Origin: Sclerodactyla briareus
Taxonomy: Eukaryota > Echinodermata > Holothuroidea > Dendrochirotida > Sclerodactylidae
Direction of reading: 5' to 3'
Length of the DNA: 64,000 nucleotides
Assembly (NCBI GenBank): GCA_026419785.1
Contig: JAODTK010004444.1
Location: forward strand, 62,001-126,000
Position numbers and translations under genes: made by a program. Positions 1-36,400 of the stretch are shown piece after piece. Every line of letters begins with the position of its first letter. Position 1 is the first letter of the stretch. The notes beneath the pieces were generated by a model. That model saw nothing but the letters and a program-made list of their open reading frames with translations, made no database searches and was not told where the DNA came from.

Positions 1-3000
1 TTTTGGGCACACAAGTTACTAATTAAGTAAGGTAATTAACAACTATTTTATAAGTTTATTATTTAGGGGCTCGTTGGCAAATGAACCGTGGAATGCTATG
101 TACTTGGTTTGGCACCAGATGCGGGGATTATAAGATAAGTGAACTGATCAGATTTTTCAGCGTATAATAGGTGTTAAGTCGTCTAATTTGCATAATTATG
201 CGAAATTCAAAAGTTTTGCTCGGATTTTCAACGAAACTTTTGAATATGTGTCTAACCATCCTAACTTCAGTCCCGAATTTTTTTAACAAAGATCGGGTTC
301 ACTGGAGTCCTTCAACGTGTCAATTGCATATTTATGCGGTCATTTTTATAGTTTTGTCCGAATTTGTGAAGATTGGTAAAATTGCTAAATATCGCATAAT
401 TCAGGAAATTTTTAGTCACATTTCCACGAGGCTTTTACTCCTTTAGTGATATTGTCAAGAATTAGTCCTTTCAAAATTTTGAAATTGTCACTGATATTAG
501 ACTTTTCCTGCTAATGCTGATACCGAAATCCTTAAGCAACACGTGGAATCCTTGTGATAGGCCAGTTCATAGTTCTAAGGGCGCATGCTCACCACAAGCA
601 GTTCGGGGGGAATAGACAAAATTCGGTCAGATTCCCCCAGCAATATCGTTTTACGGCCATTTTTAAATTGTCACCACTATTGAAAACGTGCAACCAATTC
701 ATCCCATGCTTTTCGAATGTGATGGTTGATTATTGTTTGTATGGTGACTATTAGAAGTAAGCACTGTCGCGCTAAAAAAAACCAGCGAGACACTGGCGAT
801 CGCCTTGATTTTCTTTCAGATAACATTATAAATTGTCTCTAAGACTATTCATGTTGCTGGAGTGATCCGCTGACTAAAACGGGAATGTCTCCATTAAAGG
901 TGTTAAAAAAAACGAAATATAATGGGCGTGGCAATAACTGCCTCGTATATTTTTTTCCTTTTTGGTCGATATCACTAATAACCAATTACTGACAAAAGGT
1001 TTTGAACGTGAATCTATGTGTGAAACCTGTTTGGATCACACCTGCACTGATATATTCCCATTTTTTCGCCAATACTTCCGTCCTGGATAAAGTCGGTACT
1101 CGTCTGCATCCGACCCGTCATACGATTAGGCATTACCTTTGAACACAGGACGGAATATTCCTAAGAATTTAAGTGACATTCCCAATGGAAACCCATCTAA
1201 GCCCAGTGTGATACATATACAAATACAGGCATTATCAAGACGTGATTTGAGATAAACGGGTAATACAATTACTCAAGTTCTTTCTTCTCGCTTGTGTTCC
1301 TTTTTCGTAACGTGGAGTCATCGAAGCAAAAACACTAAAATGGTATTTCATGTGTTTCCATTGTCTGCATTTTATTGCGTGTGGTATAACTTTCAATAAG
1401 TTCTTCCGGCTTCATTCGCAAACAATGACAATATGACATCTCGCGGAAAAGACAGAATGTGGATTAAAGGCTAATGTGTATCCGATGAGACCGCATCAGC
1501 TATTGCAAAATTGCGCTTGTGTCACATCACCGGCAGGGGAGGAAGAGGTGAGGGGGTGGGGGTTGTGGTTTTAATATCCAAATATAAGACAAAGTTTAAT
1601 GCTTAATGCTATAATTTTCGTACCGAACAACCTATAGATGGGGTCCGGAAGAAAGAACCGTTTAAAATCATTCCACAATATAGATTGTTCAATCATTTCA
1701 TAGGCCTCATATAAGAATGTTTCAATTCATTTCATAGGCTAGTGCAAACCCAGGGCGTTTCTGGTTTACTTCCTGCCGTTTGTATAATATGTGTCACCAA
1801 TTTATTTTGTACCGTACTGATGATCATTGTGGGAAAACAACCATGGAATTGAATTATGAACATGCCGCATTTACCATGGTTTATAGGCAGCCTCTGCCGT
1901 TTCCCCGTGATGTCAGATTTCTCGAATTCCTAAAAAAACAATCGAATATTTCCAACGAGGCACATGCTGGAACCTCAATTGGGCTGTGGGTTTCGATATG
2001 TTCGATCTTCTCATCACCTGTGGCTAGTTTGAACAATATGTTACTCGAAAACATTTTTTTCAAGTTTTCGAGGTACTTAAGCCTACCTTCGAAACTTGAA
2101 ATAAAAATGACAAAATTATGAGATCGAACATATGGTATTTTGGAATATTTCATCGAATATTTTATTTGATTCAATTTTCAACCATGGTCGTGACAAGATA
2201 CGACCATCTGTGACACATTGCAAATACGAAACGACACGAACGACCAGCGTTTTTTGTTTTTTTTTGTTTATATGTAAAATAAATAAAAAAAAACGATTTT
2301 AGCCGTATCATAGTAATAACACACGAATAATAATACATGTTTGAGTGAGTTTGCAACGCAGCTTAGAAGCATGTTGGCGCAACCGACCCTCTCGACAACT
2401 GGTAAAATTGTGCCAACATACGACACACCTGCTACCACCGTCTAAGTGGCTTCCCTCCTCTAGAAAATAGCGACAGGTGGAGTGAAACATTGCGTGTTAC
2501 GGCTTCCGCCCGGCTGGGCCGGAACATCATTAAATATCAGCACGGGACGACCCCGTTGAAACATGTAGTGATGGAAACTACAAAAGGAAGTGATAATATT
2601 TTTCTGGAGATATCGCTTCCTGTAGACTAATAACAAGTTGGACCAGGCTAGGGAGAAAGAAATTGTAATGAGGAGTACCAAACGCCTAAAAATGTAGGGA
2701 AAATTCCTCATGCTAAACGAACGTGCGTTTCTAATCTCTCAAAGATCTTCTGTAATACGAGTAACAATGAAATCTGCTTCTGACACCATCTCCACTGATT
2801 CCTATCCCTTCTAAGCCTGAGTAGGAGCATTTAACACGAAACAATTTCAAAGCATCAGGTTCATGCATCTTAAATGAAACAGTAATTAGCTTGTATATAG
2901 ATGGTCAAAGGAACAAGCTAAGATGAATTGATGCTCTCAACAATCCCACAGGGCAACATTATTTCCCCTGGATCTAAACGTTCCTTAATATTAATACATT

Positions 3001-4600
3001 CATGATCATCGCTGCTTTTACAAGTCTGCGGACAACGTTTTTAGTGTTATTCTCTGTTCAATTTTTTGGCCTACTTTTTACATTTAGATTTTGTTACACT
3101 CACATTTGAAAACAGAATGGATAAACATCATATTTACATTCATATCTACTTACATTTTGACAATTCTAACGACACTTCCAAGTGCCGTAAAACTGCCATC
3201 AGGGCATATAAGCCTAAATATTGAGATATTATTGTATGTTGTATTGCTGTTGTATTCCATTTGAGTAAAAGTAACTCACGCCAAGGATCTTGATACTTAT
3301 ATAGAAATCAATGAAAATTACACTCTACTCTCGGTAGCATATGGATTCCTCATGAAATTCATATCATTTGGCAAAGATTGGAAATTCGCATCAACAGCTG
3401 CTGTATAAACAAGACCTGTTCACTATTTGGGATATCTGCTCAATGTCATTAATAGCTCACAGCTGAATACTGACTCATGAACAAGGTAAGTAGATTGAAC
3501 GCTTGCGAGTTAGTTCGTAATATTTTCGATCCAATCAGAATAACTAGGCTGTCGATCCTCAGCACATTATCGCAGTCCACAATAAGGTTACGTTATTACG
3601 TGTCCTCAGCAAACATTCACATAATCAATCAAATATCCAAACCAGGTTCTGAAATCGCAAACGAACTTCTCCAAGCGATTTGAAAGTTACATAACATTTC
3701 AAACCTGGTTTTCATAGGACGCCCGAAATCCAGCTGACACTGTTATTGCATCAATTCACTCAACGCGGATACTCCCTCCGTAACGGTCCATGCTCGCGTT
3801 TTTTTGAAGGAAGACAAGTATTTGATGAGCCTTTGCGAGCGGCTACAGCCATTGTTTAGAAGAGACAGCAACAAACAGGGATCCGACTGTCGATTCCCCT
3901 AACGATAAGCGACTTAGTCACCCGCGGAGGACTCAATGTGTAAGTGCGAGGAAAACAGGCGTAAGAGCAAAGGGAGGAGAGGGGTAGGATAGATTTGTTG
4001 AGAAGTAGGAATACTATTATAGAAATGATAAATATAGAAGACGCCAAACGCCGAAAAATCCAAAAGAAGAACTAGAACGACAGCCGAAAGGAGATAACCA
4101 TATGATACGTATTATTTTTTTTTTTTTTTTTTTTTTTTCGCATATCTAAACAAATAATTTCGGGATTGTGGTAATTGCCAATGTTGCCAAAGGACCATCA
4201 TTTTTAAAGAACATACCTTATGTTAAGATTATCTTCTTCTCACCAAACCAAACAATACTTTTTGTTCACGAGGTCATGAGTGACACAATTTAACATTACA
4301 TGAACCCCTAATGGCATGGCATATCAGTCTTTGCACATAAACATGCCGTACATTGATTCGCAACATTGTTCATTGGTAAATAAAGGCCCAATTAATAGTT
4401 AAGTCTATCGATATTATAGAGGAATGGTGAAGAAAGAAAAAACAAACAAACAAGACAAAGCGAGGAGGCACACAGAAGGGAATTGGCCCTCTTAAAACCA
4501 AATTAGACCTATTCCAATCCGCTGGCATAAATTCCAAAATGTATTTCCCTAATCCCTTTAACTAAAAGCTTAGCAACACTCGATCTGTTATTTCATGCAT
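1..4600. other. No recognised gene or element
   Basis: AT-rich DNA without any reading frame or splice-bounded exon that I recognise on either strand. A 24-base poly-T run lies at 4115-4138. A hydrophobic minus-strand stretch near 3990-4060 was considered as a membrane exon for the gene to its right but is not supported by more than composition. Confidence 0.5.
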
Positions 4601-4642
4601 TAGCTATGGCCATTGATCTATGGAATGGGAACTAAATCTTAC

Positions 4643-4699
4643 CGGTAGGCTTGCCTGGCTTGCTAATTGTCGTAGGAGTTTCTGTACTGTCGGGTTTCG
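4643..4699 (-). CDS. Pro/Thr-rich microexon (57 nt), best preserved copy
   Basis: Read on the minus strand, the exon follows CTATTTTTAG and is followed by GTAAGAT. It is exactly 57 nt, starting with two bases that finish a codon and ending with one base that begins the next. Spliced to a copy of itself it gives the 19-residue repeat AKPDSTETPTTISKPGKPT. This is the most 3' complete copy of the array. Thr, Ser and Pro dominate, as in O-glycosylated stalks. Function is inferred from composition only. Confidence 0.6.
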
Positions 4700-4915
4700 C
4701 TAAAAATAGAAAATGGAAGAGGCATGTTAAAATGAGACATGATGTTAGGCACAATATTCATGGTATTTTTACTACACGATTGAAGAAGCGGGGAGTGTTG
4801 TTCGCAGTTCTAGTTCCTTTATTATAAATGTAGCGAGAAGAACTCTGAAAGCTAATCACATATCATACATTGGAAATTTAAGTTTTCACGATATGTTCTC
4901 CAAAATAAATCTTAC

Positions 4916-4975
4916 CGGTCGGCTTGCCGATCGTAGTGTTAGTTGTCGTAGGAGTTTTAGTACTGTCGGGTTTCG
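4916..4975 (-). CDS. Pro/Thr-rich microexon (60 nt)
   Basis: Same phase-1/phase-1 microexon type, 60 nt, with intact donor GTAAGATT. The end of the repeat reads NTTIGKPT, and NTT is an N-glycosylation sequon. The sequence upstream of its acceptor differs from the usual unit because the flank changes to the 'cattactcaatag' intron type at 4977. Confidence 0.55.
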
Positions 4976-5328
4976 CTACATTACTCAATAGTATCTTTAT
5001 TACACGATTAGAGAAGCACGTAGTGTTGTACGCAATTCTAGTACCTGTATCAGAACTTTAGCATCCAGAATTCTGAAAGCTAATCACATATCATACACAT
5101 TACACATTGGAAATTCAAGTTTCTCACGATATGTTCTCCAAAATAAATCTTACCGGTCGGCTCGCCGATCGCCGAAAATGTAAAATGCATGTTAAAATGA
5201 GACATGATGTTAGGCACAATATTCATGGTATTTTTACTACACGATTGAAGAAGCGGGGAGTGTTGTTCGCAGTTCTACCTTCATTAGAATTGTAGCATGC
5301 AAAACTCGATTCCCAAACTGAATCTTAC

Positions 5329-5388
5329 CGGTCGGCTTTTTGATCGTAATGTTAATTGTCGTAGGAGTTTCTGTACTGTCGGGTTTCA
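5329..5388 (-). CDS. Pro/Thr-rich microexon (60 nt), type A
   Basis: Intact acceptor (TTTTTTAG) and donor (GTAAGATT). It reads V-KPDSTETPTTINITIKKPT. It is the first of three 'type A' cores (5329, 6139, 6945) spaced about 808 bp apart in the higher-order repeat. The later two copies have indels (67 and 71 nt). Confidence 0.55.
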
Positions 5389-7240
5389 CTAAAAAATAAG
5401 GAGGGAAAGGCTTGTTAAAATTAGTACACGTCATTAGGCACATTACTCAATAGTATCTTTATTACACGATTAGAGAAGCACGTAGTGTTGTACGCAATTC
5501 TAGTACCTGTATCAGAACTTTAGCATCCAGAATTCTGAAAGCTAATCACATATCATACACATTACACATTGGAAATTCAAGTTTCTCACGATATGTTCTC
5601 CAAAATAAATCTTACCGGTCGGCTCGCCGATCGTAGTGTTATTTGCCGTGGAAGTTCCGGTAGTGTCGTATGGTCACTAAAAAATAAGATACATGGAAAG
5701 GCATGTTAAAATGCTTACATGGTTATTTGGCACAATACTCCATGGAATTTTCACGACACTACCTTCAATTAGAATTGTAGCAGATGCGATCTAAAAGTTA
5801 ATTCACATACACAATTTGGAAATTCAGTTCTTTCACGGTTGTTTCCCAAAACTAAACTAAACACCGGTCGTCTTGCCTTCGTATGTTAATTGTCGTAGAG
5901 TTTCGGTACTGTTTGGGTTTTCACTAAAAGAAGAATGTAAAATGCATGTTAAAATGAGACCCCAGAGTTAGGCACAATATTCATAGTATTTTTACTACAA
6001 CATAAAGAAGTCCGGAGTGTTGTTCGCAGTTCTCGCTTCAATTTAATGTAGCATGCAAAACTCTAAAAGCTATCACATATCTAATTGGAATTCAAGTTCT
6101 CTGCACGGTATGCTCCCAACAACTAATCTATTATAAACCTGTCGGCTTTTTGATCGTAGTGTTAATTGTTCGCTAGGAGTTTTCCTGTAACTGTCGGGTT
6201 TGTCACTAAAAAAAAAAGGAATGCTTGTTTTTTTTTAAAATTCGTACACGTCATTAGGCACATTACTCAATAGTATCTTTATTACAACGATTAGAGAAGC
6301 AGTAGTTGTTGTTCCAATTCTAGTACTGTAATCATAAATGTTAGCATGCAGACTCCAAAGCTAATCACATATCATTCACATTACACATGAAATTCAAGTT
6401 TCTCACGATATGTTCTCCAACTAAGTCTTACCGGTCGGCTCGCCGATCTGTAGTGTTATTTTCCGTGTAAGTCCCGGTAGTGTCGGGATGCACAAAAAAT
6501 ACATAATGGAAAAGGCCATGTTAAAATGCTTACATGTTATTTGGCACAATACTCCATGTAATTTTCACGACACTACCTTCCATTAGAATTGTAGCATGCC
6601 GGACTCTAAAATTAATTCACATACACATTGGAAATTCAAGTTCTCCACGGTATGTTTCCCAAACTAACTAGTACCGGTCGTCTGCCGATCGTAGTGTTTA
6701 TTGTCGTAGGGAGTTTTCGTACTGTTGGGGTTTCACTAAAAGAAGAATTTAAAATGCCTGTTAAATGAGACTGATTTTAGGCACAATCTTCATAAGTATT
6801 TTTACTACACGATTAAAGAATCAAGGAGTGTTGGTTCGCAGTTCTACCTTCATTAGAATTGTAGGCCTGCAAACTCTAAAAGCAATCACATATCATACTA
6901 GGAAATTCAAGTTCTGCACATATGACTCCCACACTGAATCGTACCGGTCGGGCTTTTTTTGATCGTAGTGTTAATTTTTCGTAGGAGTTTTTTCTGTACG
7001 GAGCTTCGGGTTTCACTACAAAAAAATAAGGAAACGGCTTTGTTAGAAATTCGTACCCGTCATTAGGCACATTACTCAATAGTAATCTTTATTACACTAA
7101 TTAGAAGCCGTAGTGTTGTTCTCACTTCTAGTACCTGTTTCAGAATTTTAGCATTGCAGAGCTCTAAAAGCTAATCACATTTTTCCCATTACACATTGAA
7201 ATTCAAGTTTCTCACGATATGTTCTCCAACTAAGTCTTAC

Positions 7241-7300
7241 CGGTCGGCTCGCCGATCGTAGTGTTATTTGCCGTGGAAGTTCCGGTAGTGTCGGGATGCA
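7241..7300 (-). CDS. Pro/Thr-rich microexon, type B, acceptor damaged
   Basis: 60-nt core reading HPDTTGTSTANNTTIGEPT-like sequence with donor GTAAGACT. Expected acceptor AG is missing one base (sequence is TTTGTG before the core). The sister copy at 6432-6492 has the same lesion, whereas the copy at 5616-5676 keeps AG but has an internal indel. Copies lie 809-816 bp apart. Confidence 0.4.
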
Positions 7301-7474
7301 CAAAGAATAAAATAATGAAAATGCAGTTAAATGCTTACATGTTATTTGGCCACAATACCCCATGGCATTTTCACGACACTACCTTCCTTAGATGTAGCAT
7401 GCCGACTCTAAAAGTTATTCACATACACTTGATTCAAGTTCCTTTCATCGGATGGTTCTCAAACTAAATCTCAC

Positions 7475-7534
7475 CGGTCGGCTTGCCGATCGTAGTGTTT
7501 ACTTGTCGTAGGAGTTTCGGTACTGTGGGTTTCA
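7475..7534 (-). CDS. Pro/Thr-rich microexon, type C
   Basis: 60-nt core with donor GTGAGATT. Its acceptor AG is intact and the base run ahead of it reads GTTTTAG. It is the third of the type C cores at 5865, 6675 and 7475, which are 800-810 bp apart. Confidence 0.45.
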
Positions 7535-8080
7535 CTCTAAAACGAAGAAAGGTAAAAGCATGTCAAATGGAGGACATGATGTCAAGGCCAATATTCATGT
7601 ATTTTTGCTACACGATTGAAGAAGCAGGGACGGTTGTTCGCAGTTCTACCTTCATTAAGATTGTAGCATGCAAAACTCTAAAAAGCTAATCACATATCAT
7701 ACATTGGAATCTCAAGTTCTGCACGGTATGTTTCCCAAAATAATCTGCCTTCGTCTTGTCCGATCGTAGTGGTAGTGTCGTGGGATTTCAATACCGTCGG
7801 GTCTCACTACAATAGGGATGGAAAAGGCTTGTTAAAGTGAGACATGTGGTTATTCACTATACCCATGGTATTTTTACTGCACGATTAAAGAAGCAGGGAG
7901 TGTTGTTCGCAGTTCTACCTTCATTAAGATTGTAGCATGCAAAACTCTAAAAAGCTAATCACCTATCATACATTGGAATCTCAAATTCTGCACGGTATGT
8001 TTCCCAAACTGAATCTTACCTGTCGGCTTGTTGATCGTAGTGTTAATTGTCGATGATTTCAGTACTGTCGTGTTTCATCA

Positions 8081-8889
8081 CTAAACAAGGCGATCGCCAA
8101 AAAGTGTCTCGCCTGGGTGCGTGATCGGTGGTTTCTATTAGCCTATTCACTACACTACACACTATACCAAACCAACGTAGTTCATGCAGACCATCGTCAT
8201 GTCAAACGAACATCACATATTTTCACATATAACAAAAAAGTTCCTAAAAAACTGACCAATAAGTTGAATCTTTTTACAAAATGCCTTAATTGCTTTTTTG
8301 TTTCTTCCTCACCTCCCCCCACTCTTCTCTCCATAATTACCCAAATTTAAATAAAGTTTTATCACTCAGTCAACTCACCTTCCTTGACCCAAATCAACTT
8401 GAAATGTTCTACATCCCTTTAGCAGCCCGGCTTCTTTGCCTTTCAAAATCATTTTCTTCATTATTCTTGCCTTTTATTTCCAAGCATCCAGGAACCAATG
8501 CCACCCCCCCTGTCAGCAGCGAACACCCTCCCCCGCCTCCCTCACACACCAACAAACTATCCCCACGCAGCAGTCAAGGATGTTCAAAATATATTTTAGG
8601 TAACCTCCACATTTGTCCCCAGTCCCCCAGGCAAGAAGAGAGGGGAACAAATGTTTACAGTATTTTTGAATGTCTAATCAACCTAATCAAAGTGGTTGGT
8701 AAGAGAGGTTTGCGTGTGGCAGCATATACAGCACAAGTTTTCCAACAGGATCTAGGGTTTACTCGTTCCTCAGTGCTTTATTTCTAACAGAAGTTATTAT
8801 TAATAATAATAATATTACTAGACTTTAGAACGCTATTCACAGAAGCATCCCAGCGTGTACAGAACCAAAATCAATAACAGATGGGTTGT
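8081..8889. other. Interruption of the microexon array, unassigned
   Basis: From 8081 the array stops and unrelated sequence continues to about 10035. This first part has no recognised gene. A short stretch at 8745-8795 ('actcgttcctcagtgctttatt') recurs at 9745-9795, so the block contains its own duplicated pieces. Confidence 0.4.
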
Positions 8890-9150
8890 TGAGCAACATC
8901 TCTAAAAATTGACAGTGACGCCGCGGAACGCACATCACGAGGAGCCTATTCCACTAGTTGACAGAGTATTAGGTAAACGCTATCGCCGAGAGCATATCTA
9001 CTACGGTTTGGAATCACCAAACGGTTACGCTCGTGCGATGACCTTAAAGTACGCCCTGGGACGTACCTTTGCAGATGGCAAATTAAGTAAGAGGGCGCTA
9101 GACTGTTTAGACACTTGTATACAAAAACAAGATTCCTTAAAAACAATACG
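8890..9150 (-). pseudogene. LINE reverse transcriptase C-terminal fragment
   Basis: On the minus strand the frame reads LVFVYKCLNSLAPSYL, then RTLRSS, then LVIPNRSR. These are the signature pieces of the C-terminal tail of CR1/L2/Jockey-group non-LTR reverse transcriptases (consensus 'YKALNGLAPSYL ... RSLRSS ... L.VPRSR'). Only about 85 residues remain and no RT catalytic motif is present. A 136-residue plus-strand frame over the same bases is its antisense shadow. Confidence 0.7.
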
Positions 9151-9569
9151 CTTGGGAATCGTCAACCAGTGGAGTTCATTAATAAAAGGGGTTGCACTCA
9201 CTCGCCTGCTTGCTCTAAAAATAACGCGGGCAGCGCTGTTCAGAAGAACTGTAGAACGGCCTGGTCTTCTAAAGACAGTTACGAAAACAGGTCGTTACAA
9301 TATTCGAGCCGGGATGTAACTGAGGCGCGAGCTACATGGTGACAATGTTGACACAATATATCTGCGGATACGCCATATGTTCCTAATTGGGAAGTTAACA
9401 GATTGTCTTAGATGAGTGATGTAGTCGCTAAATGACATAGAGGATTAAAGAGAACCCCGATGTTGCGAACAGCAACACTGCGAGTAATATCGGCTTCACC
9501 AATAGTAAGTTAAATTGGTGGAAGCAGCTTTTGATTTGCTTTTGGTTTTGACTCATCCAGGACCGATGG

Positions 9570-9870
9570 GATATGATGGGATTCAATCAAAGTCATGAAC
9601 ATCAAACACATCAGATTCAGGACATGTTAACGGACCATACCTACTGAGTTAAGCGAATTCTTACCGAGTTGGACATTGGAATAAATTATGCAAATTGGCA
9701 CATACAATGAGCTTTAAACAGCAGTAAATTTGTCACAGGAGCTATGGTTCACTCGTTTCTCAGTGCTTTATTCTATGAAAAGTTATTACATGATGGACAT
9801 CAAATTCCTGAACATCAAACACATCAGATCCAGAAAATGTTAACGGACCATACCTACTGAGTGTGTATGG
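9570..9870 (+). repeat. Diverged direct duplication
   Basis: The stretch 9575-9655 (gaacatcaaacacatcag ... ggaccatacctactgag) is repeated at 9788-9866 with scattered changes. The second copy runs straight into the CA microsatellite. Confidence 0.65.
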
Positions 9871-9873
9871 AAC

Positions 9874-9884
9874 ATACACACACA

Positions 9885-9966
<82 letters not shown>
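9874..9966. repeat. (CA)n microsatellite
   Basis: Nearly pure CA dinucleotide run of about 90 bp. Long frames through it are His/Thr or Val/Cys dipeptide artefacts. Confidence 0.95.
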
Positions 9967-9968
<2 letters not shown>

Positions 9969-10127
9969 ACACCATAGTGACCACTAAGTCTCTTCCTGAA
10001 TTTCATTCAGGCGAGACAAAAAGGAGGAAAAGGCTTGCTAAAATTAGTACACGTCATCAGGCGCAATACTTAATAGTATCTTTATTACACGATTAAAAAA
10101 GGGGCAGGGAGTGTTGTTCGCAGTTGA

Positions 10128-10516
10128 TTTGATTTTGATTGCTACGGGTTCAGGAAGCCAATTTGACCCATCATGGAACCCTAACCGATTTTTTTTCTGA
10201 TCGTGGATGAGCACCCGGCGACAACTCGCCTTCTTTTCTAGACTAGTGCTCAGATGATATCGAGGCAGGAGAGTTGACACCCAATCCCTGCCTAAACAAG
10301 CCGACCGCGAGCCTATTGCAAGTGCCCCCCCCGACACACACCCCCCGGAAATGGACAAAGCCCAAGATCAACAGAAGGACCAGGAACAAGCCAGTCGAAC
10401 TGCAGATACAGCCACTTTTGGAAAACGCCCGGTGCTGGTCGGCTGGAATTCGAATCCGGGACCTTTCGCATGCAAAGCGAACCCTGATACCGCTCTACTA
10501 TCCTTCCGCTCAGTTA
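10128..10516 (-). mobile_element. tRNA-derived SINE inside the microexon array
   Basis: Read on the minus strand, the head at about 10510-10435 looks like a tRNA. It has an A-box-like GTAGAGCGGTATC, an anticodon-arm-like CGCTTTGCATGCGAAAG (TGC in the loop), and a B-box-like GGATTCGAATTCC. A body of about 300 bp follows. Both flanks are pieces of the microexon unit: 10036-10126 matches the 'acgtcatcaggcgcaat' intron and 10517-10600 continues it, so the SINE landed in an array unit. Being so diverged in the acceptor stem, it is more likely a SINE head than a functional tRNA-Ala gene. Confidence 0.6.
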
Positions 10517-10619
10517 TACGTACCTGTATCAGAACGTAGCATGCAGAACTTTAAAAGCTAATCACATATCATATACTTTTCAAGTTCTTCACGATATTTT
10601 CCTCCAAACTAAATCTTAC

Positions 10620-10681
10620 CGGTCGTCTTGCCGATCGTAGTGTTTTAGTTGTCGTAGGAGTTTCGGTGCTGTTGGGTTTCA
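10620..10681 (-). CDS. Outlying Pro/Thr-rich microexon (62 nt)
   Basis: Same core as the array at 4.6-8.1 kb, with donor GTAAGATT and acceptor TTTTAG intact. Its length of 62 nt breaks the 57/60-nt rule: an extra T run ('tgtttta') marks a two-base insertion. Flanking intron sequence at 10690-10870 is of array type. It is the most 5' member of the array on the minus strand, separated from the rest by the 8.1-10.0 kb block and the SINE. Confidence 0.45.
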
Positions 10682-10982
10682 CTAAAAGAAGAAACGTAAA
10701 AGGCATGTTTAAATGCCATACATGATGTTTTGTTAGACACAATAATCCATGATACTACGCGCTGAAGAGCGGGAGTGCTGTTCGCAGTTCTACCTTCATT
10801 AGAATTGTAGCATGCAAAACTCTAAAAGCTAATCACATATCATACACATTGGGAATTCAAGTTTTGCCCGATATGTTTCTTAACCTAAGGCGTTTGACCC
10901 TTTTTGTCGAGCGCCAGCAGGTTAGCAATTCACTCTGTTGTAAGAACCTTTTTAGAAACCTGATGAGGAAGGGGACCTAAAT

Positions 10983-11189: not shown

Positions 11190-12870
11190 CTCCCAAAAGA
11201 GAAGAAAAACCAGATTGCCGACAGAAGTCGCCCACAATTCTTGAAGAGAATAAATCAAGACTGTTCTTGAACGCATTCACACTTTAGACAGAACAAACGT
11301 CTTCAGGAAGGCTAGTCCACTCAATACTAACTTCTGCGAGAAAAATAATTCCGAATGTCCAATTTAAGCGTTTACCAAGAATGAAGCTTGAGGCAATGAC
11401 CCCTATGTTTATTGAGATAAAGCTGATTTTTCTTTTTTTTTTCAAACCACAAATAACTGGTCGGCACAAAAGATTGTCAATAGAAGGGGTGTAGGGGGTA
11501 AACCCGTCCGGACCAGGAGCTTCGGCAGTTTCTCCTTTATCACATCAGGTGAACATACCAGAATACCAATAGTATTATGAGGCTACACAACCACAAGGTC
11601 GCTGAAATCCAAGTGTCTGAGTGAAAACCGACGAAAAATAATTACTATGAACGCTAGCCATAGCAATCTCCGACTTACGCTGTGGTTGTATTACCAGAAT
11701 TGGACACTAGCAGTGGACCAATGCTGTCCATGACTTTATGCATTCTCCGTTAACATAAGAGTGAAAAACGCACGAGGAGTATCCTTCATATTTGAGGCGA
11801 TCTGCCTCTCGAAATCGAGTTTAGCACCAGAAATAAACGTTTTCCACTAGCCTCTGCCTGACTATCAAATCAGGACAAGAACAGTAGAACGATTATAAAG
11901 TCGCCCCAAACCCCCCAAACGATGTCTGTTACGTTTACTGGCCAGAAACTCCTCCCTTTTCATCCAAGGAAGCACTTTTGTTTTCAAGGATCGCCTTTTC
12001 CAGAATCGTCAAGCTTTCCAGTAATCGTTAACGTTAACTAATGAGAACCTTCCAGGAGCACAGCATTCAAAATTTGCTAAGAAATTTAGAACAATCTCCA
12101 GTTCTCAGAAACCCAGAAATGCCATCCTGATCGGCCCTCGAGACACAAGGAACGAGCATTTGAATATGGGCAGAACAAGACACAGTCGAGAGCTATAATA
12201 TCGTGATCACTGCCACCATGCTACCCTAAATCTCTACATTATCCACGGAACCTGGATCACCATTCAGAGCTAAATCTAATATCTGCGTTTCCGAGTGGGA
12301 AAAATGGACATGCTGCAAAAGAAACGATTTGGGGTGACATTTAAAGAGGCAGAATCGTTGCCTAACCCACTACTACATCAGACAAAGAAAATATGCTGGA
12401 TAATTGGACAGCACCCATAATAATCTTGCGTTCTTACGGAAAACTTTGAATAGCATGTCGAAAAGAAGCGAGTTTTTATTGTTCAGAGCGGTTGGGGAGG
12501 GAGGAACGGTATTACAGTATCGCTATGAAGGTTCCGGGAATACCTGAAGCGTTGGACGGCATTTATTTACACCAAGAAGAATTGACCGTAACTACGAACA
12601 CCATTATCTGTTTTCTCAATGCTATTCAGTCAGACCTAACATACAACAAAACTCCAACCCCAATGCCACGAAGAGTATATGTCCGAGCTTGCATAGGAGC
12701 AAATCATAACTAGAACGTGCACTTCAGCTGAGGAAATGTAAAGGTTTAGCCAAGACTCGGTTTGTTGTCGGCTTGCGTTCCTGGACGAAATTCGGAACTC
12801 ATCAGAATCGTTTTCTTGATACTGTGAAACTATTATCGCAGAAAGAATACAGCTCGCGCGAATATGTCTA
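11190..12870 (-). pseudogene. LINE (CR1/Jockey-like) remnant with internal deletion
   Basis: Minus strand, 5' part: TESWLN at about 12755 and GVLLYVRSD at about 12650 recall the APE endonuclease region of CR1/Jockey LINEs. ILDLALNGDP and a GS-H-like segment near 12280-12180 fit the endonuclease C-terminal end. 3' part: WTSLPEDV then SVNAFKNSLD at 11330-11235 fits the conserved RT tail 'WN.LPE.VV.A.SVN.FK..LD'. Only about 700 bp separate the two, so most of the RT domain is missing. Many stops. Confidence 0.6.
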
Positions 12871-15479: not shown

Positions 15480-16640
15480 TTCCTGTGAGTGATGTTTGCG
15501 TCATTTGTTCCGTCCCTATCTGGCACCGTTGTTGCATATGTTGGGGATAGATATTTCTAGAATTGTCTAGTAGGTCGATGCATCTGCATCTGTCATTTCA
15601 GCTGTCGCGGTACTTTCCAATAAGGTTATTGCCCCGTTTTCTCAGTGCTTCTGACTTTTCTGATGATGTAGTTTTCTGTGAAACGTTACGCTCACTTCCC
15701 GGTGCCTCCCACAAACCGTTGTAGCAGCAGTTGCTGTTGCTGATGATTCGTTACGTCAGTGTATCTGGTCGTCTCTCTAGTACCGTTTGGTGCATCTAGT
15801 TGGGTAATTGGATTTCAGTGATTCTAGTGAGTCGTTGCATCTGTCAATGTGTCATTTCGGCAGCCCCGGGACTTCTCTGTACTGTTGCTTTTGCTACGTC
15901 TGACTCTGATTTTCTAGGTGAACTCGTATTCTGATCAAAGCTGTAGTCGTGCTTGTCGGCTCCATTGCCTCCCAACAACGTTGTAGCAGCAGATGTTGTT
16001 GTCTGTTGATGTTTCGTCGTCCCATATTACCGTTGTTTCATCCGTCAGGACATTGACTTCTGATAAATGTCTGGTAACGTCTTTACATCTGTCAACCATG
16101 TTGGTTCGATTGATTTTCCTGACGATCTAGTATTCTGGGGGGGGGGGGGGGGGGGGGGGGGAGGGGGGGGGAAAGTGTTCAAACGCCTTTGTCGTGTCTT
16201 CATTTCCATTGCCTCCCAACAACGTTGTAGCAGCAGATGCTGTTGCTGTTGATGTGTCGTTGTCCCATATTACCGTTGTGTCATCCGTCAGAGCATTGAC
16301 TTCTAATAATTCTGGTAACGTCGTTACATCTGTCAACAATGTTGGTTCGATTGATTTTCCTGACGATCTAGTATTCTGTTCAAACGCCTTTGTCGTGTCT
16401 TCAGTTCCATTACCTGCGAATAACGTTGCAGCAGATGCTGTTGTTGCGGGTTTTCGTCGTCCCATATTAGCGTTGTTTCATCCGTCAGGGTATTGATTCC
16501 TTGTATCCTGGGTACCGTTGTTACATCTGCCAACGTCGTTGTTTCAACTATCCCTTCGGTAGTTCCCAATGTCTTGTTGTCTCTGTCATTGACGTAGCAG
16601 TGTTGAGATGACTTGTTCATGGAACCAGAATGAAATGTAG
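15480..16640 (-). repeat. Thr/Asp-rich coding-like tandem repeats, period about 200-215 bp
   Basis: At least three clear units begin at 16020, 16262 and 16461 (marker 'cccatatta.cgttgt'), with older, more diverged copies back to about 15500. Read on the minus strand, the units give Thr-rich protein such as LTDVTTLPELLEVNALTDDT, then IWDNDTSTATASAATT and NEDTTKAFE. Frame is shared across two units but breaks at others, and a 35-base G-rich run interrupts one unit. It may be a large mucin-type exon of the minus-strand gene, or a decayed copy of one. Start, splice sites and parent gene are not resolved. Confidence 0.55.
16137..16171. repeat. Poly-G tract
   Basis: 25 consecutive G, one A, then nine G, sitting inside a Thr-rich repeat unit. 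The other units have 'ctgttcaaacgcc' at this place, so the tract is an insertion. Confidence 0.95.
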
Positions 16641-21947: not shown

Positions 21948-22812
21948 AGCCGCGTCTCCATGCACGCGGGCGGGCGGGCGGGCGTCTAAATCGCTCATCG
22001 TTATTTTCAATGGAGCCGTTTCCATGTACGAGCGGCCAGGCGGGCGGGCGGGCGTTTCTCGAAATCGTCATGTAGCGATTCCTTCGCCCGCCCGCCCGCG
22101 TGTCCGCGTGGTATTTCGTAATCGATTCCGGGGATTTCCCTGCGATCTTACCGGCTGTAGCCCGATAATGGAGAATAGAGGACAATTTCATGTTCAAATA
22201 ATGTTCCAAACAACATTGATAACTGTTTCAACACTAGGGATGAGATTTTATACAGATTGTCTCTAGTTTTAACGGCCAGACACCTATTTGAACACATATT
22301 TACATGTTCAAACCATTGATATGTCAAGTATTTGCTAATTGAATCTCCAAAACCTGTCAATTGTAAAGTTTTAATAGTGGGGCCGTAACGTCATCGTTGA
22401 CAATTAGAACAATGCGTTTTCAGAAAATAAACACCGGTGTTCAGGTTAATCACAGTATAGTATGCGTCCGAGGGTTGATAAATGAATAATAATAATAATA
22501 ATAATATAATAATAATAATATAATAATAATAATATAATAATAATAATAATAATAATATAATAATAATAATAATAATAGTATGCTACACATACTGGCCAAA
22601 CTCGGTTCTTATATAGCGCATATACACACTATTAGTGGGAAGAGGTGCTTGACTCATATAGCGCATATACAAAGTAAAAGTGAGAAGTGGAGAAAACGCG
22701 CCCCCCGCCCGCCCGCCCGCCCGCCCGCCCGCCCGCCCGCGTGCATGGAAACGGGTCTTCCGAAACGCCCGCCCGCCCGCCGCCGCCCGCCCGCGTGCAT
22801 GGAAACGCGGCT
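21948..22812. mobile_element. PIF/Harbinger-like MITE with 3-bp TTA target duplication
   Basis: Left end AGCCGCGTCTCCATGCACGC, right end the inverted match AGCCGCGTTTCCATGCACGC, with one mismatch in 20. Both ends are flanked by TTA (21945-21947 and 22813-22815), the 3-bp target duplication typical of PIF/Harbinger. Each terminus carries (GGGC)n on its G-rich strand, and each has a second, inner copy of the terminal motif (about 22014 and 22757). No transposase: the 865-bp interior holds an AAT microsatellite (22483-22578) and no frame with recognisable motifs. Confidence 0.75.
22483..22578. repeat. (AAT)n microsatellite
   Basis: About 95 bp of AAT triplets with slips, inside the Harbinger-like element. 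Confidence 0.95.
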
Positions 22813-23559
22813 TTACCTGGTTACGGGAAATGCATAGTCTAGTAACATGTCTACTGAAATGCTCAGGGGCAACTATCAACTGGATTATAGAAAGGGACTT
22901 TGTTCTCTCTGTGTTTTCTTCCAGACTGATGTTTCATCTTCTCGACCAAAATCAGCACTCATCCTGATTTGTTCTTGAGCACTGATTGAAAAGAAATCTG
23001 AAAAGTAGAATACTTTACAAACTTGATCTTGATATGTGTGGAATATCGGTTTCTATTTTGATGGCACGGAACTTGCAACATATGGTCGATGTTTACAACC
23101 TCTAACTCCGGGACAATATTTCGCCAAACAACAAATGGTCACCGTATATCGGTACCTTTGAGAGAACGAAGGGCTACACGTTCCCGAGGATATTTTCCTC
23201 AGTTCTTCCGGATATTCGGTTCGGAGTGATTGATTGACATAACCTATCGTAACTGAAGTGTCCTTTCTGAGAACGAAATAAAGTAAATATATATTGCCTG
23301 GGAGCAGTAGAGAGTTTCTCATTGCATTGACTGAGTGATCAGATGTTGACTGACCGACATCTCTAGATAGGATTGACTGAGAAAGTAAAAACACATAAAC
23401 TTCTCATGTGTCATATAATACGTTTCGAATTATGTCGAACTTTCACTGTTAAACTTGGTGTCTTCAATGCACATCGGGAGATAATACACAGGATCAGTAA
23501 AAACGTATGAATAAACTCGCCTGTTTCCGATCGGTAACTATAACTAGACGGCCACACAC

Positions 23560-23682
23560 CACTGGCGGGTAGTCCATTGTTCAGCTTGGTCGCTACCCCC
23601 GAATCTTGAGCGTGCACCGTGACACTGTAGTTGCCAACTTCAGTGACTTTGAAAACAGCGGAATATATACCATCCTCCTCGT
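23560..23682 (-). CDS. CLCA-like protein, beta-sandwich exon
   Basis: The minus-strand exon follows TTCTGTCACTTCTCTCACAG and is 123 nt to a GTGTGT donor. It reads DEEDGIYSAVFKV, then GNYSVTVHAQDSG. CLCA proteins have 'DDGVYSRYFT...GRYSVKVRA' at this place, just after the vWA domain, in the extracellular beta-sandwich region. Its first two bases join the last base of the exon at 24580 to give GAC, so the two exons splice in phase and read IDG-DEEDG across the junction. Function in the family: secreted or membrane-anchored regulator of calcium-activated chloride currents. The 3' end of the exon is less certain; an open frame continues past this donor through YRSETGEF. Confidence 0.75.
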
Positions 23683-24579
23683 CTGTGAGAGAAGTGACAG
23701 AAATTCGGTACAGTAAGGCGTAAAAAATCAAGTTTTGACATTGATTGGTTGCCAAACTTCCCTCTGGTTTTTCTTGTGGTTCAACTAGTGGCACCCGTCC
23801 TCTCGCGAGCTGTGAGAGACTGGTATGTTTCCTTCCCTGGTGGCTATGCGGAACATCACGCACCACCTCAATGGTGCAGTTTTCAGAGCTTTTGGATTGA
23901 CCAGACAGAGAATGATTTTAGCTTTGACTCGCCGAGTGCTCCAACTACTTCATACGTGCATACGATCATACGTTCGGAATGGTGACGGACTTCAACGAAG
24001 CCAGACAACGAGCGGTGACGGTCTGAGTATGTCCATTCATTCGCAAGGTATATCGGTGTAGAGCATTTGTACCCTAGATCAGAATATATGTCAGTCAGTA
24101 TGAGTGAAGTGCATATATTCATAGGTATATGGACTGATACTATTAGAGTTGTGACTATTTGGGAGAATTCAGCAATAGACAAAGAACAATACTTGCGAAT
24201 GTTCGTTCGTGGCATCTTTACGACTGGTTAGAACGTTTGTTTGGTATTCGGAACTTGAATTACCTTATGGTTGGCTTTGAATTGGCACTACCATTTGCCA
24301 TGTAACGTTCACCATATGTATCAACAGCATGCAGAAAATGAAGGCTTGTAACATGTTGAACATGTTATGCGAATTAACCCTCCTAAGTAGCATCATATTA
24401 CTGCCAAGTTTGAACCTAATCAAATGTACAGTTTAGAAAGTATACCGAATGGTCGAATAGAGGGAAATGATGGCTGTTGAGCTGCACTCGCAGCCTAAAC
24501 ACAAGATATAGCTACCCATCGGAATAATTTGTTTCAACCCGATTGTGTCCGAAAAAACCCAAGAGAGAATGAAACATAC

Positions 24580-24743
24580 CCCCGTCGATGCTGTCAATCA
24601 GCTGGAGGTTTAGCTCAACAGTGGGTCCGCGGACAGTAGCAGTGACGTTAGCTCCATGTATTGCTTTATCATTCTTTGAAACCGACACATGGATGGTGAT
24701 GTTCTCATCGTGAAGATTGAGGGTTTTTTCTGGAGACGTACGG
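24580..24743 (-). CDS. CLCA-like protein, beta-sandwich exon upstream of 23.6 kb
   Basis: Minus strand reads SRTSPEKTLNLHDENITIH, then KAIHGANVTATVRG, then VELNLQLIDSIDG, ending at donor G|GTATGT (24579-24575). This matches the CLCA segment 'SRAS..TL..ITV.......ASVTA......TLELLDNG'. NIT and NVT are N-glycosylation sequons, as expected for an extracellular domain. The 3' boundary is firm because it joins in phase to the next exon. The 5' boundary is not: AG occurs after 24743 and after 24729, neither with a strong pyrimidine tract. Confidence 0.75.
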
Positions 24744-24759
24744 CTCAGCAATCACTCTT

Positions 24760-26400
24760 GCCTCATTCTCTCTACGTCCAAACATCTATAATGTGGTGTG
24801 AAAATTATTGGATCAATGATTCCAAAACGGATGACAACATTGTATTTACTCTATCTGGAGGTGAAAATACTTATATGTATTATTCTCCATTCTCACACAA
24901 TAAGTGCTCGACATTGTGAAACCACACATCTGCTATTCGTAGAAACAAACAAGATGGCGCTGAAATACCTATAAAAATTGTTGTTATCATCTCGCAAAAT
25001 GTTGAATGCATACAACCGTTTATTCATATAAATGGTACCGCATAGATCTGTGTACCGATTCCGCTCGACTTTTTTTCCGTTTGAACGTTTTCTGCTCCGT
25101 GCCTCTCCCATTATATCACGTGAAATCCCCATTCAAAGAACGATTTCATGATTCGGTGACCTAGTCAACCCGACCCTTAAGACAACAAGAGACGTTTTTA
25201 GGATTCGTCTTAATATGACCCCAAACGTGTCTTTATGACAACCATTTATGGGACATGAAAGAAATACTATCTTCACGCTGATTGTACGTAAAATACTTAC
25301 AGTTTTGCACCTGAACTACTTTTAGATGCAATTTTCAAGATGCGGTGGGTACAAGATTGGCAAATGAAGCTGATAGACACAGCCATTCCCAGTAACGGAA
25401 CAAATAGGTGGCAATTTTATCACCCTTTCATCTTTATTCTTATCTGAGTCTAATGCAAATTTCTCACCAACATGTTACTACTCACATATTTCACATTGGA
25501 ACCGGAACAATCAATTGTCATGCTATTTCATCACTCTCAACGACAACATTTTCTGTGCATGCAATTGGTAGTGTTTCCCCGTCTTCCGGGCTCCAAATAT
25601 ATGATTCGTAAGATGAATACGTATCCGTTGATATCCCGTGTCGCCGAAAACCTAGTGGCAAGGAAAAGGAAACGTTTACACCGAAAAACAATAGCGTTTT
25701 GATAATTCCCACGAGGTTGTTACACACCAGATCTCTCTTCATCAGACCAAGCGTTATGGTGCACAACGTTTGTGACCTCAGTTGACCTTCGACCTGATCT
25801 CGAAACAATATGTTCCATGAACCAACCATGTTTCAGCCTGAAGCATCCACGTAGAGTATAGTTGTCGTATCTCTGAGCCAACATGTGAATATCTCACAAT
25901 TCATTACCATTGTTTTTACGAGAAAATGACCCAGGTTCACAACGAAAACAAAATGGTTCCTGACCTCCCAGGACCAATCATGTGGACGTTTTCATACGTT
26001 AACCTTTCCTCTCCTCATGACCTTTGACTGGAATTCATTACGATAAGGCTCATGTACTCACAATGGAGAACCCACATCCCAAAGTATTATTTTGATTCCA
26101 GTTTTTTTTCTGGCCCATCATTTAAACGCAGTCTCCCAGACGGGGAGCTGGCGATCTGCCAAATATGCCATCAACTCGGTACAGACTGACAGAGATTCAA
26201 AGAGGTTCAATAAGCCAGTTCGGAGATAGCTCATGCGCATGCGTCATTGTCCCCCGGTGCTGGAATTTGTGAGAATTCTGTACTGCTCGGACAATCCGCC
26301 ACAGTATTTCAATGGAGAAACTGAGATCTTGAGAAACTTCACATTATTAGTCTCTTGTTTTTATTTATTATTTTTAGTTGTATATTAGTTCTAGCATTCA
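24760..26400. other. Probable intron sequence, no recognised element
   Basis: Lies upstream of a CLCA exon on the coding strand. No further exon could be supported, although one phrase near 25750-25830 was weighed and rejected. Confidence 0.4.
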
Positions 26401-26416
26401 CTGTATGCTAATTATA

Positions 26417-27680
26417 TCCCCACTTCGGGTATATTATGGTTTTGCCTTCGTCGGGTCCGCCGCGTCCGCCGCCGCGTCCGCCGCCGGAAGATTCTCTCGT
26501 TAGCGCGATAACTCTCCAACGCTTTAGCTCGATTTAGCTGAAACTTGGTACACGGGTTGACCCCATGGAGATCTAGGATGCTTTCGAAAACTGGTATTAC
26601 CGTAATCTCTGCCTCTGCTTTGGTGATTTTACGCAAAATTTTCAAGTTTGTCCGATCTACACGAACTTAATACTCAGGGATGACAATTGGTCCCGAAAAA
26701 CATGACGGCATTTTCAAGGTCATCCGAGGTCAAATTTGGTGTCATTTTTTGCGATTTTTTGCAACATGTCGGATTTTGGCGAAACTTGGTTATTAGGGGT
26801 AGCAGTTGGTCCCGAAAAACATGACGGCATTTTCAAGGTCATCCGAGGTCAAATTAGCGATATTTTTGCTCAAAGGTAATTTGGGGTCAGTTAGGGGTCA
26901 AAAACTGATTTTGGTACTTTTTCGGCAAAAATGGCGTGTTCATCAGAATGCAAAATTCTCCTAGGAGTGGATGTATCACATGAGAGTTTACAATTTCCTC
27001 CATGAAAACTGTCGTGTCATTGAAGTCATTCAAGGTCACTAAGGGGTCAAAAACTGTTTTCTGGCCATAATCGGAGAATTGAATAATCTGTGAAGGCTGG
27101 AAGGTTCATCATTGTGATATAATTGTTGACCTGCATGTGTGTGAACCTCTGACCTCAATTTGACCTCTGTCGGGTGGTCATGTGGTTAAAGGTTGAGTCT
27201 TGAATAAATGGGGTCAAAGTTTAATTTAATAGCTTTTTTGCAATAACATTAGGCGTGTTCATTGGGGAATGCAATATGCCAAAAAAACAACTAGAGGAGC
27301 ATCAACATGGAAGTAAACAGTTTAGAAAGAACCGCCACACTTGTCATTGAAGGTCATTAAAGGTCACGTAGGGGTCAAAAACTGATTTTAATACTTTTTT
27401 TGGCAATAGCACTGGGCACTTAGGGGTCAAAAACTGTTTTCTGGACGTAATTGGGAAGTGAATATCTGTGAAGGCTGGAAGGTTCACCATTGTTATATAA
27501 TTGTTGACCTGCAGGTCGGACCTCTGACCCCTCATTGACCTCTGTCGGGTGGTCATGTGGTTAAAGGTTGAGTCTTGAATAAATGTTCTATTTAAAGGAG
27601 TTAACTGGGCAAAAAAAATAGGACTGGTTATTGGCACATAGGGAATCAAGTTGGGCGGTCTACCGCCAGGCGGTGTCTAG
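26417..27680 (+). mobile_element. Non-autonomous Helitron-like element, copy 1
   Basis: Starts TCCCC after a host A and ends CTAG before a host T. A GGCGGTCTACCGCC hairpin lies about 10 bases before the CTAG end. These are the hallmarks of Helitrons: 5' TC, 3' hairpin plus CTRR, insertion between A and T, and no terminal inverted repeat. The 5' part is rich in GTCCGCCGC. The interior has two related segments (27000-27220 and 27410-27590) and repeated AGGTCA hexamers, including perfect direct repeats with 4-base spacers at 26717-26732 and 26836-26851. No Rep/helicase frame. Confidence 0.7.
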
Positions 27681-29950
27681 TTAATATAAACGGAAATTCC
27701 GCGAAATGTGATAACTGATCCACGTGTTATGTGTCATACGCACACGTTCGAGATATACTAATACTTCGGTAACCTGGCGTAGAACTGCTAACGTACGGCG
27801 CGCAAGAGCGGTGTTGATTGGCTGGCATTTCCGAATTTGGCAGTCTGGGGTGGTGATATATTCACGTTTTAGTCTGAAGGTTCTCATAGTTTGTTAGTGA
27901 CCTAATAGTTTCCTGGGAATAATTGATAAATTTCCTGTATTTATTTGCTGGAATCGGCTGGTTCTAACAAAGTTATTGCATTTTTCGTACTGAATATTTC
28001 GGCGAGCTCTGAGCCACCAGTAAAACCTATGGACAGGGACGGCACGTTGACTGAAAGTTGTCACAAATGGACAAATTGCGCAATGCCCGTTCTGTAACTC
28101 TGGCTTATTAACACGAACTAATGGCATATGTGACAATGCGCGCGCGCCACACACTGATAGGGTTTTGGTGAACACAACTTTAGGATTGATGCAGGTGTTT
28201 AAAACATCACTAACATCGAACCACACTTTTGTATATTTATTCATAGTTACATATTGTTATTTCAATAGAATCTGAAGGGGTTCCGTGTGTAGTAGTAGCA
28301 AAGTGGTGCGAAGCTCGAATTGTGTGTACGTAGGTTCTATCCCATGTCATGTGAAAGCTAAGCGCAGGGCTGGCTAAGCCGACGCCAAATCAAAATGGTG
28401 CCAAAAGGGCCAATACGATTTTTGTATCCTCGCAGGAGTTCAGTCAGAGTTTCGTTATATCAGTCACGTTTGTTCCCTACAATAAGGGTCAAGCGGGCTT
28501 GCGCGATGTGAGCGTACACAGGTCTGTTATTGTTACGAGTGGATAAGCTATGTGGAGCGTGAAAGCGTAGGAATTTGTGCTGTTGTTGTATCGGTTTAGC
28601 TAGGGTTGCAAGCGTGAGTGCATTCTGCTCCTAGCTACTACCCATGAAGTCGACTGAGGTGGTTGGCTAGGTTCTGGTACAGCATTACGACTGTCGTTAT
28701 AATGAGGGGATCGGGCGTGGCATTCAGGCCAACGCACCGCCTGTATACTCTCTGGACGGACCTTGTACAGCACACCTCGACAGTGACCGCCGTTTATTTT
28801 ATGGTCGCATCAGTGTTATCCCAGGCATGGGGCGCCTTGCAACACCAGGGGCGACCTGATCCTCTATTGTGCGACTGAATACTCTGTGTGCAACTTGTGC
28901 AAGTATGGCTCAAACATCGGTAGAATCAAGCGAATGGTGGTCGCTGTCGAGGCCCACGTAGCTTCACGTTCACTCATTATAGCGGAGGCCACAGTCCGAG
29001 AGACGGGAGGCGTATTTGCTTTGTGTCAAGGACAATGAACCATATTTAATTGGAAGCGAACTGCAATTATTTGGTCGCCCGTATCCAGTGTATATTTGAT
29101 CAAGACGTGATTATTTGATTGAAACGTTATTCATCCGATCAACCAGTGTTTATTTATCCAAACGTATTGAGACTATTGCTAATGAGTATAGTTAAGTATT
29201 GTACTGGAACTGCAGAATAGTATTAGCTAGTTTGATGGGGTCCCTCGTGCACGAGGGTTAGTAGTATTAGGTTTGTAATGTTGTCGTTATTGTTTCATAT
29301 TGCACATAACTGTGTTGTTTACTATTGCTATTGGTTGCTCAAGTGAAACCAACATTTCTGGCAAAAATCTGCCAGTCATAGATTCAGTTCGACACGTTGA
29401 AACACAAAGATGTATCGGTATAGTGTCAGGAAGCTGGTAGTTATAATAACGTCATAATATTTTTGCAAAGTAGACGATTCTAATTCAGATTCAGAATTTT
29501 GCAAACAGGTTTCCCTGTTTCCTAATCATCAGTACTCTATAATGAAACCACACTGCATATATATATGCATGGAATTCAACAAATAACTCATTCAAACGAC
29601 ATGTTACTTGCCTAATGATAAATAAAGCGCTATGGTGGGACGTTTATTATAAATAAAGAAAAAATAAAAAAACAGTCGAGAATAAAAAACCTAGGGAAAT
29701 AACAGGACGAGTTGAGACATTGTTTGTGCGCATTCCCCACCACCCAATTCCTGCAACCAGAAGAAATAACGAATAGCGAGAGCTAGCCTGCTGACCAATC
29801 AGAACAGAATATCTGCAATAATGGATAGCCGGGTGTTGTAGAATTGATTACACCATGCAGGCCTCTGCGGATTCCTATCCTATTGACCCTACTTTCTTCA
29901 ACGGCATCAACGTGCATCATGCAAATCACGTCAACATACGAACGGCATGA
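27681..29950. other. No recognised gene or element
   Basis: Probable intron or intergenic sequence. No exon or repeat recognised. Confidence 0.4.
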
Positions 29951-29959
29951 TAGACTTAC

Positions 29960-30097
29960 CTGGAAAATATCGTCATCAGAAAAGACACTCTTGAGGTCGG
30001 CGATAGCCTCCTGACAACTGGAGTCTCCATTCAGACACCCTGCATCTGCAAGCTTCTCTTCAACCTGATCTTCCATGCCTGACTCTGACACTATGAC
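29960..30097 (-). CDS. Candidate exon, product unknown
   Basis: A 138-nt open stretch (46 codons, phase 0 to phase 0) lies between TTTATAATGGCAG and a consensus CAG|GTAAGT donor. It reads VIVSESGMEDQVEEKLADAG, then a Cys-Asn-Gly-Asp segment, then EAIADLKSVFSDDDIFQ: acidic, with two Cys seven residues apart. It lies on the same strand and within the interval of the CLCA-like exons, in the region where the rest of the vWA domain is expected. I see no convincing vWA motif, so it could belong to another gene or be lineage-specific sequence. Confidence 0.45.
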
Positions 30098-30246
30098 CTG
30101 CCATTATAAAGTATATGCTCCCATTGATACCCTGCATGTAGCTGCTGCTTACAACTAGCAAGTAGACATGACGAATGAATAGTAGGTGGTTAGATGATTG
30201 ATGTTCTTCGAAGCTAATAGTTTCTTGGATGATCAGTTAACCTTAC

Positions 30247-30289
30247 CAGAAAGTCAAAGGGATTAGTCATTTCTTGACTGATCCTGATT
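30247..30289 (-). CDS. Candidate microexon upstream of 30.0 kb exon
   Basis: 43 nt between TTTGCTTAATCAG and CTG|GTAAGG, ending in the phase that the 30097 exon needs. It would read IRISQEMTNPFDFL directly before VIVSES. Evidence is splice signals and phase only. Confidence 0.25.
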
Positions 30290-30715
30290 CTGATTAAGCA
30301 AAACAATGTCCAGTCCATACCGAGTATGAACTTGCTCGTGCCACCTCTCCAGTGTGGTCGGGTTATCGTGTTCACAACTTGACCATGATTAAGAACCAAT
30401 GTAAGCGAAACAGCCTTCCATAGCATACCTAATGCTACCTACCGGAACTTCACAAACTTAGATCGTTCCAGACAAAGTTTTGAAATTCGATTTGGAAGAT
30501 GATTGGATTCGTCTTGAAAGAACTTCTCTGATGGGATTGAACCGTCAGTTAAGCATAAATAATCAAATCTTATCAAAATCCGAACTAACATATATTATCT
30601 TGATTTCCACTGCATCAAGGAAGTTCAGAGTATAATTGCTTTTCGGAGCCGCTGGTGCCGACTAGTTTTCAAGATGCTAGTACTGGGAAAATTAACGCAA
30701 GTTATCAGGAATGAG

Positions 30716-31827: not shown

Positions 31828-32020
31828 GGATGAAGGTGTGGCATTTGTGATACGTTTATAAAATTATCCATCTACATTTCTCTGTGAGGATGGATAGGTA
31901 AGAATATAAACTGCGATGGATCACGTGAATCATACAATAGAAACCAAGAAACTTCTGTTTTCGGGTCCCTTGGTGGATCTATCTTCCCTCCCACGGTGCT
32001 GGATTTATCGTTGACCTTAC

Positions 32021-32166
32021 CAAATCTGAAGTGTTTGGCCAACCACGATATATCATATATCCAGTACATATTCTCATCCAACCATAAACGCGCTGCACCG
32101 CCTTCCAGCCCCTTCCTGGTAACTGCTAATTTGTTTTTCATTCGACTCACCCGTCCATCCGTGCTA
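32021..32166 (-). CDS. Probable CLCA vWA-domain exon
   Basis: Minus strand between CGTTCTGTCTGGCAG and a GTAAGG donor, 146 nt. It reads STDGRVSRMKNKL, then GLEGGAARLWLDENMYWIYD. CLCA vWA domains continue after the MIDAS strand with a stretch like 'G.R..RL.Q......', and this exon lies next after the exon that ends at that strand (33465). Phase does not match the best frame of that exon, so either the boundary or the sequence has an error. The homology is weaker than for the other CLCA exons. Confidence 0.4.
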
Positions 32167-35760: not shown

Positions 35761-36014
35761 AGGTTCCACGGGAAAGACTAATGGTTATTGTGGTGGGAGT
35801 GGACACACACAAACTGTATCGACAGAATTTTGTGCTCTGGTTGGCTGGTTCGTGTTAATGCTGTTCTGTTAGTGTAACCTGCAAGGTTCCTCCTTGCAGG
35901 ACGACGTATTTTTTAGGCAGGATTAAAGATTTTCAGGGCTAGTTAGGCTAAACTAGAGGGTACAATTCTTTTCAACAATAACATTCAAAACTTTCCTCTA
36001 AATTACAGACATTT

Positions 36015-36338: not shown

Positions 36339-36400
36339 GAGTTAGTTGAGCTGTAATCCCCAGAAAGATGCAGCCTCAATTGTTTTGGTGATTCGTGGTC

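Follow-up and report, generated by a model that had tools for sequence, protein, structure and literature searches.

A tandem array of short exon-like units in Sclerodactyla briareus that may encode a Pro/Thr-rich linker

A contig of the holothuroid Sclerodactyla briareus (JAODTK010004444.1, assembly GCA_026419785.1) contains a tandem array of short exon-like units, initially annotated as about 15 symmetric microexons encoding a Pro/Thr-rich stalk. How did this array grow, how many of its units are intact and what would it encode? We explored these questions in the window, which is the whole stretch of 64,000 nucleotides analysed. A repeat array can be over-read: the tidy picture is true of the consensus and of few units as deposited. 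The units, the phases and splice signals of their founding exon and a three-unit periodicity are directly visible. We lean towards the reading that they belong to a minus-strand gene of animal type, in which repeated copying of a 60-nt phase 1-1 exon and its intron would have produced about 15 units, to be transcribed and spliced into a linker.

Consensus and individual units

A profile built from the full units placed 14 full exon-like units and a truncated one on the minus strand, from 10701 to 4625, and detected no further unit at E ≤ 1 anywhere in the 64-kb window, which bears out the place and number initially annotated. The 14 full units were recovered at E 4e-28 to 5e-16, a match by construction, and the truncated unit at E 7e-8. 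Used alone as query, the exon at 4643 recovered 12 of the 14 full units (itself included) at E < 0.003 and another at 0.055, and missed one. The tandem units, each of about 270 nt, hold an exon plus an intron of about 0.2 kb. Two inserts of other, foreign sequence split the array, at about 8090-10020 and at 10126-10510; the latter interrupts one intron copy, the sequence of which continues on either side.

The majority consensus of the 14 units is an open exon of 60 nt that starts and ends in phase 1, flanked by a T-rich tract plus AG acceptor and by a GTAAGAT donor. It encodes KPDSTETPTTINTTIGKPT, with V or A as junction codon when read from the sequence, and its second reading frame is likewise open. 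The founding exon, as represented by this consensus, has a length that is a multiple of three and the same phase at both ends. Individual units are listed in Table 1.

Table 1. Units of the array and larger features in window coordinates
Feature	Coordinates	Strand	Description
Exon unit, last in transcript order	4643..4699	-	57 nt, phase 1-1, intact, KPDSTETPTTISKPGKPT
Exon unit	4916..4975	-	60 nt, phase 1-1, intact, KPDSTKTPTTTNTTIGKPT; AG present, no pyrimidine tract before AG
Truncated exon unit	5154..5171	-	5' part lost; 3' end and GTAAGAT donor only; abrupt junction
Exon unit	5329..5388	-	60 nt, phase 1-1, intact, KPDSTETPTTINITIKKPT
Exon unit	5616..5676	-	61 nt, out of frame
Exon unit	5865..5923	-	59 nt, frameshifted; non-GTRAG donor
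Exon unit	6139..6205	-	67 nt, frameshifted; non-GTRAG donor
Exon unit	6432..6492	-	61 nt; acceptor AG absent
Exon unit	6675..6735	-	61 nt, frameshifted; non-GTRAG donor
Exon unit	6945..7015	-	71 nt, frameshifted; non-GTRAG donor
Exon unit	7241..7300	-	60 nt, open, HPDTTGTSTANNTTIGEPT; TTG in place of acceptor AG
Exon unit	7475..7534	-	60 nt via compensating indels that alter the peptide; AG and GTGAG present
Exon unit	7748..7806	-	59 nt; donor GT absent
Exon unit	8020..8080	-	61 nt, frameshifted; GTAAGAT donor
Exon unit, first in transcript order	10620..10681	-	62 nt, frameshifted; has AG and GTAAGAT
Three copies of three-unit higher-order repeat	5329..7747	-	about 808 nt each (806-810 nt)
Indel-rich stretch	5680..7729		set apart by substitution:indel ratio; read by us as low-accuracy assembly

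The lengths between expected sites, from 10620 to 4643, are 62, 61, 59, 60, 60, 71, 61, 61, 67, 59, 61, 60, 60 and 57 nt. An AG, 57 or 60 open nucleotides and a GTRAG donor occur together in 4 of the 15 units and fail to do so in 11, so that a majority with frame and splice sites retained is not found in a sequence whose accuracy is itself in doubt. The intended 57- or 60-nt frame with AG and GTRAG is kept in three units, the fourth (7475-7534) reaching 60 nt through its compensating indels. Taken singly, GTRAG donors are present in 10/15 units (exact GTAAGAT in 7/15) and an AG lies at or near the expected site in 12/15. Typewise consensus sequences were also built: that of type C (3 units) has no 60-nt exon with AG, and that of type D (3 units) has 60 nt but TTG instead of AG. 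Strict candidates averaged 0.45 over 300 dinucleotide shuffles of the array (maximum 5), and two of the 300 shuffles reached four. Outside the array the AG/open/GTRAG pattern has six occurrences on the minus strand and six on the plus strand as a whole, which means that it is not rare in itself. The description of each unit as a phase 1-1 exon of 57 or 60 nt thus holds for the 14-unit consensus and fails for most single units, of which 3/15 fit; likewise, skipping without frame loss applies to the founding exon and not to most units as deposited.

Expansion of the array and its indel-rich middle

From the unit at 7475 to that at 5616, identity is 93.4% at lags 3 and 6 and 84.6-85.9% at lags 1, 2, 4 and 5. 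In addition, a 194-nt block is present twice with zero differences and abrupt edges (4978-5171 and 5440-5633); this pair may reflect a recent exchange or an assembly duplicate. Because of the three-unit higher-order repeat and, with that caveat, the 194-nt block, the proposed lengthening by unequal crossing over is supported. An ancestral 60-nt phase 1-1 exon for a Pro- and Thr-rich peptide of about 20 residues would have been copied together with its intron by unequal exchange until the array reached about 15 units, each roughly 270 nt long, the latest rounds of expansion probably proceeding in three-unit steps.

The distribution of indels bears on why so many frames are broken. Compared with neighbouring parts of the array, its bins have 49 substitutions and 9 indels (4630-5679; ratio 5.4), 153 and 104 (5680-7729; ratio 1.5) and 51 and 13 (7730-8229; ratio 3.9). 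Four of the seven bins of the first part are exact copies of each other; when these are omitted, its rates per 100 columns are 13.2 for substitutions and 2.4 for indels, versus 9.6 and 6.6 in 5680-7729, which is why the contrast rests on the substitution:indel ratio (5.4 versus 1.5). Indels strike exon and intron alike. Pairwise alignment of the three 808-nt copies gave 45-56 substitutions and 65-70 indel events, whereas with a second aligner substitutions exceeded indels (63:32, 48:15 and 67:36). Homopolymer runs of at least 6 number one in 1080 nt (4600-5679), six in 2051 nt (5680-7730) and zero in two short flanks. Since other repeat pairs in the window are indel-rich as well (40820-41862 with 52 mismatches and 30 gaps; 47660-50861 with 115 and 60), it is chiefly the difference between parts of the array itself that carries the indel argument. 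The second of these regions holds a long inverted repeat pair, 47660-48491 and 49984-50861, in which 686 of 909 columns are identical and gaps are many.

We read 5680-7729 as poorly polished long-read sequence, a low-accuracy assembly to which many of the broken frames would be due; an indel-rich genome or real decay is another possible cause. In the latter case, the exon would have multiplied while the gene still worked; most units, or the gene as a whole, would since have become pseudo-exons that the spliceosome passes over, and the few that are intact, around 4.6-5.4 kb, may still be in use. The 11 units without a complete exon, the foreign inserts and the flat codon-position pattern described below are in line with such decay. 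However, ordinary decay leaves several substitutions per indel, and a ratio of 1.5 is far from that as well as from the 5.4 of the adjoining part of the array, hence we consider this explanation unlikely, though not negligible.

Encoded peptide and comparable exon arrays

Pro, Thr and Ser make up 53-63% of the exon peptides, and N-glycosylation sequons occur in four of the five peptides counted. Substitutions versus the consensus show no codon-position bias in the array exons (24/274, 26/270 and 26/277 for the three positions, the units not being independent), so selection on the peptide is not demonstrated. Among units of the same type, exons diverge by 4.4-5.8% and introns by 7.0-8.8%; over all unit pairs there is no difference (14.1% versus 13.5%). 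Protein searches found no homologue of the array protein in a collection that may hold few animal proteins. The stalk role initially proposed fits the Pro/Thr-rich composition and the sequons; serial splicing of the exons would yield a flexible, probably glycosylated linker, and the product may plausibly be a secreted or membrane protein whose stalk is rich in Thr and Pro.

An intronic or intergenic tandem repeat whose founding unit happened to carry an AG, 60 open nucleotides and GTAAGAT would agree with the 12 occurrences of the pattern elsewhere on both strands, with the open second frame and with the absent codon-position bias, but is improbable given that the consensus combines a T-tract, an AG, an open frame and a strong donor, that same-type exons diverge less than introns and that the same strand has a coding-like Thr-rich repeat further upstream.

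With regard to known systems, the usual limit for a microexon is about 30 nt, which units of 57-60 nt exceed. Collagen exons begin with a whole Gly codon, unlike the phase 1-1 exons of the array, and collagen was rejected since the array peptides lack Gly-X-Y. The likeness to fibrillar collagen lies in short exons multiplied in tandem: the relevant passages of PMC4450265 describe a block of 23 contiguous 54-bp exons in a fibrillar collagen gene and a proposal that the 54/45-bp exons were multiplied in tandem by unequal recombination. Similarly, the PEVK region of titin has many tandem small exons that code for a low-complexity extended segment, with 113 annotated PEVK exons in human and exon numbers that differ between species via tandem duplication, as stated in the corresponding part of PMC6469411. 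The array differs from it by having about 15 units and one repeated peptide that is Thr-rich and sequon-bearing instead of PEVK; no titin domains were found. Schistosome micro-exon genes share rows of short exons and, for the founding exon, multiples of three. They encode secreted proteins and have 10 to 20 very short exons of 6-81 bp, mostly 15 bp and multiples of three, with introns of up to 5 kb, as summarized in the section of PMC10526429 concerned. Measured against that summary, the 57-60-nt exons, ~0.2-kb introns and near-identical ~270-nt units do not fit such a gene, and this reading was rejected.

As far as these sources go, calling tandem short exons uncommon was an overstatement, and the kind is already known from collagen, titin PEVK, micro-exon genes and symmetrical exons in general; a passage of PMC6335736 gives the general argument that symmetrical modules in animals are free from frameshift. 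A literature search for the same kind of array yielded no fitting case, which is no proof of absence from the literature. If many units are spliced, the array would be a compact case of in-frame linker lengthening, in which phase 1-1 exons spare both exchange and skipping from frameshifts. As a speculation to which we give little chance, stalk length might even vary at two levels: through unequal exchange, individuals would carry more or fewer of the three-unit blocks, each worth about 60 residues, and transcripts would skip single exons of 19 or 20 residues, resulting in a ladder of linker lengths from one gene.

Neighbourhood and candidate host gene

About 13 kb upstream of the array and on the same strand, at about 23.6 kb, a choice-of-anchor X match was found (27.3 bits with an NCBIfam cut-off of 25, E 2.2e-6, 23 residues matched). 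It is held by a candidate 162-nt phase 1-1 exon (23521-23682, minus strand) with an AG acceptor and a GC-type donor. Also upstream on that strand is a Thr-rich repeat at 15932-16600 (minus strand), open over 92 residues of which 23% are Thr. This coding-like tandem repeat consists of three copies of about 200-245 nt each, which are mutually out of frame, and has a 35-nt C tract (minus strand) in its middle. We infer that the choice-of-anchor X exon and the upstream Thr-rich repeat belong to one gene with the array.

CLCA-type proteins (calcium-activated chloride channel regulators) can carry choice-of-anchor X before a C-terminal linker, an arrangement that the upstream match would resemble if it is linked to the array. 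Unlike in such proteins, neither a VWA nor an N-terminal CLCA domain was found at E ≤ 0.1 by Pfam on the minus strand outside 4641-10689, and the gene could extend past the window. The same Pfam screen gave sub-cut-off matches only (PRIMA1, NaeI, Filamin and YtkA); on the plus strand, searched at 1-9990 and 28001-37990, there were two matches, both below cut-off. A weak gelation-factor match had E 1.6e-4 for the chain and 6.3 for its best stretch. Rfam gave nothing at the gathering threshold, ARAGORN no match, and PDB, searched with one frame of 22000-32000, weak matches only (E 0.3 or worse). Downstream of the array (1-4600, minus strand), hydropathy alone pointed to several hydrophobic stretches, none of them convincing as a membrane segment.

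Finally, two plus-strand open frames (34087-34467 and 34774-35157) resemble by eye what we take to be a decayed retrotransposon reverse transcriptase, without Pfam support, and have a relative on the opposite strand at 11449-11723.
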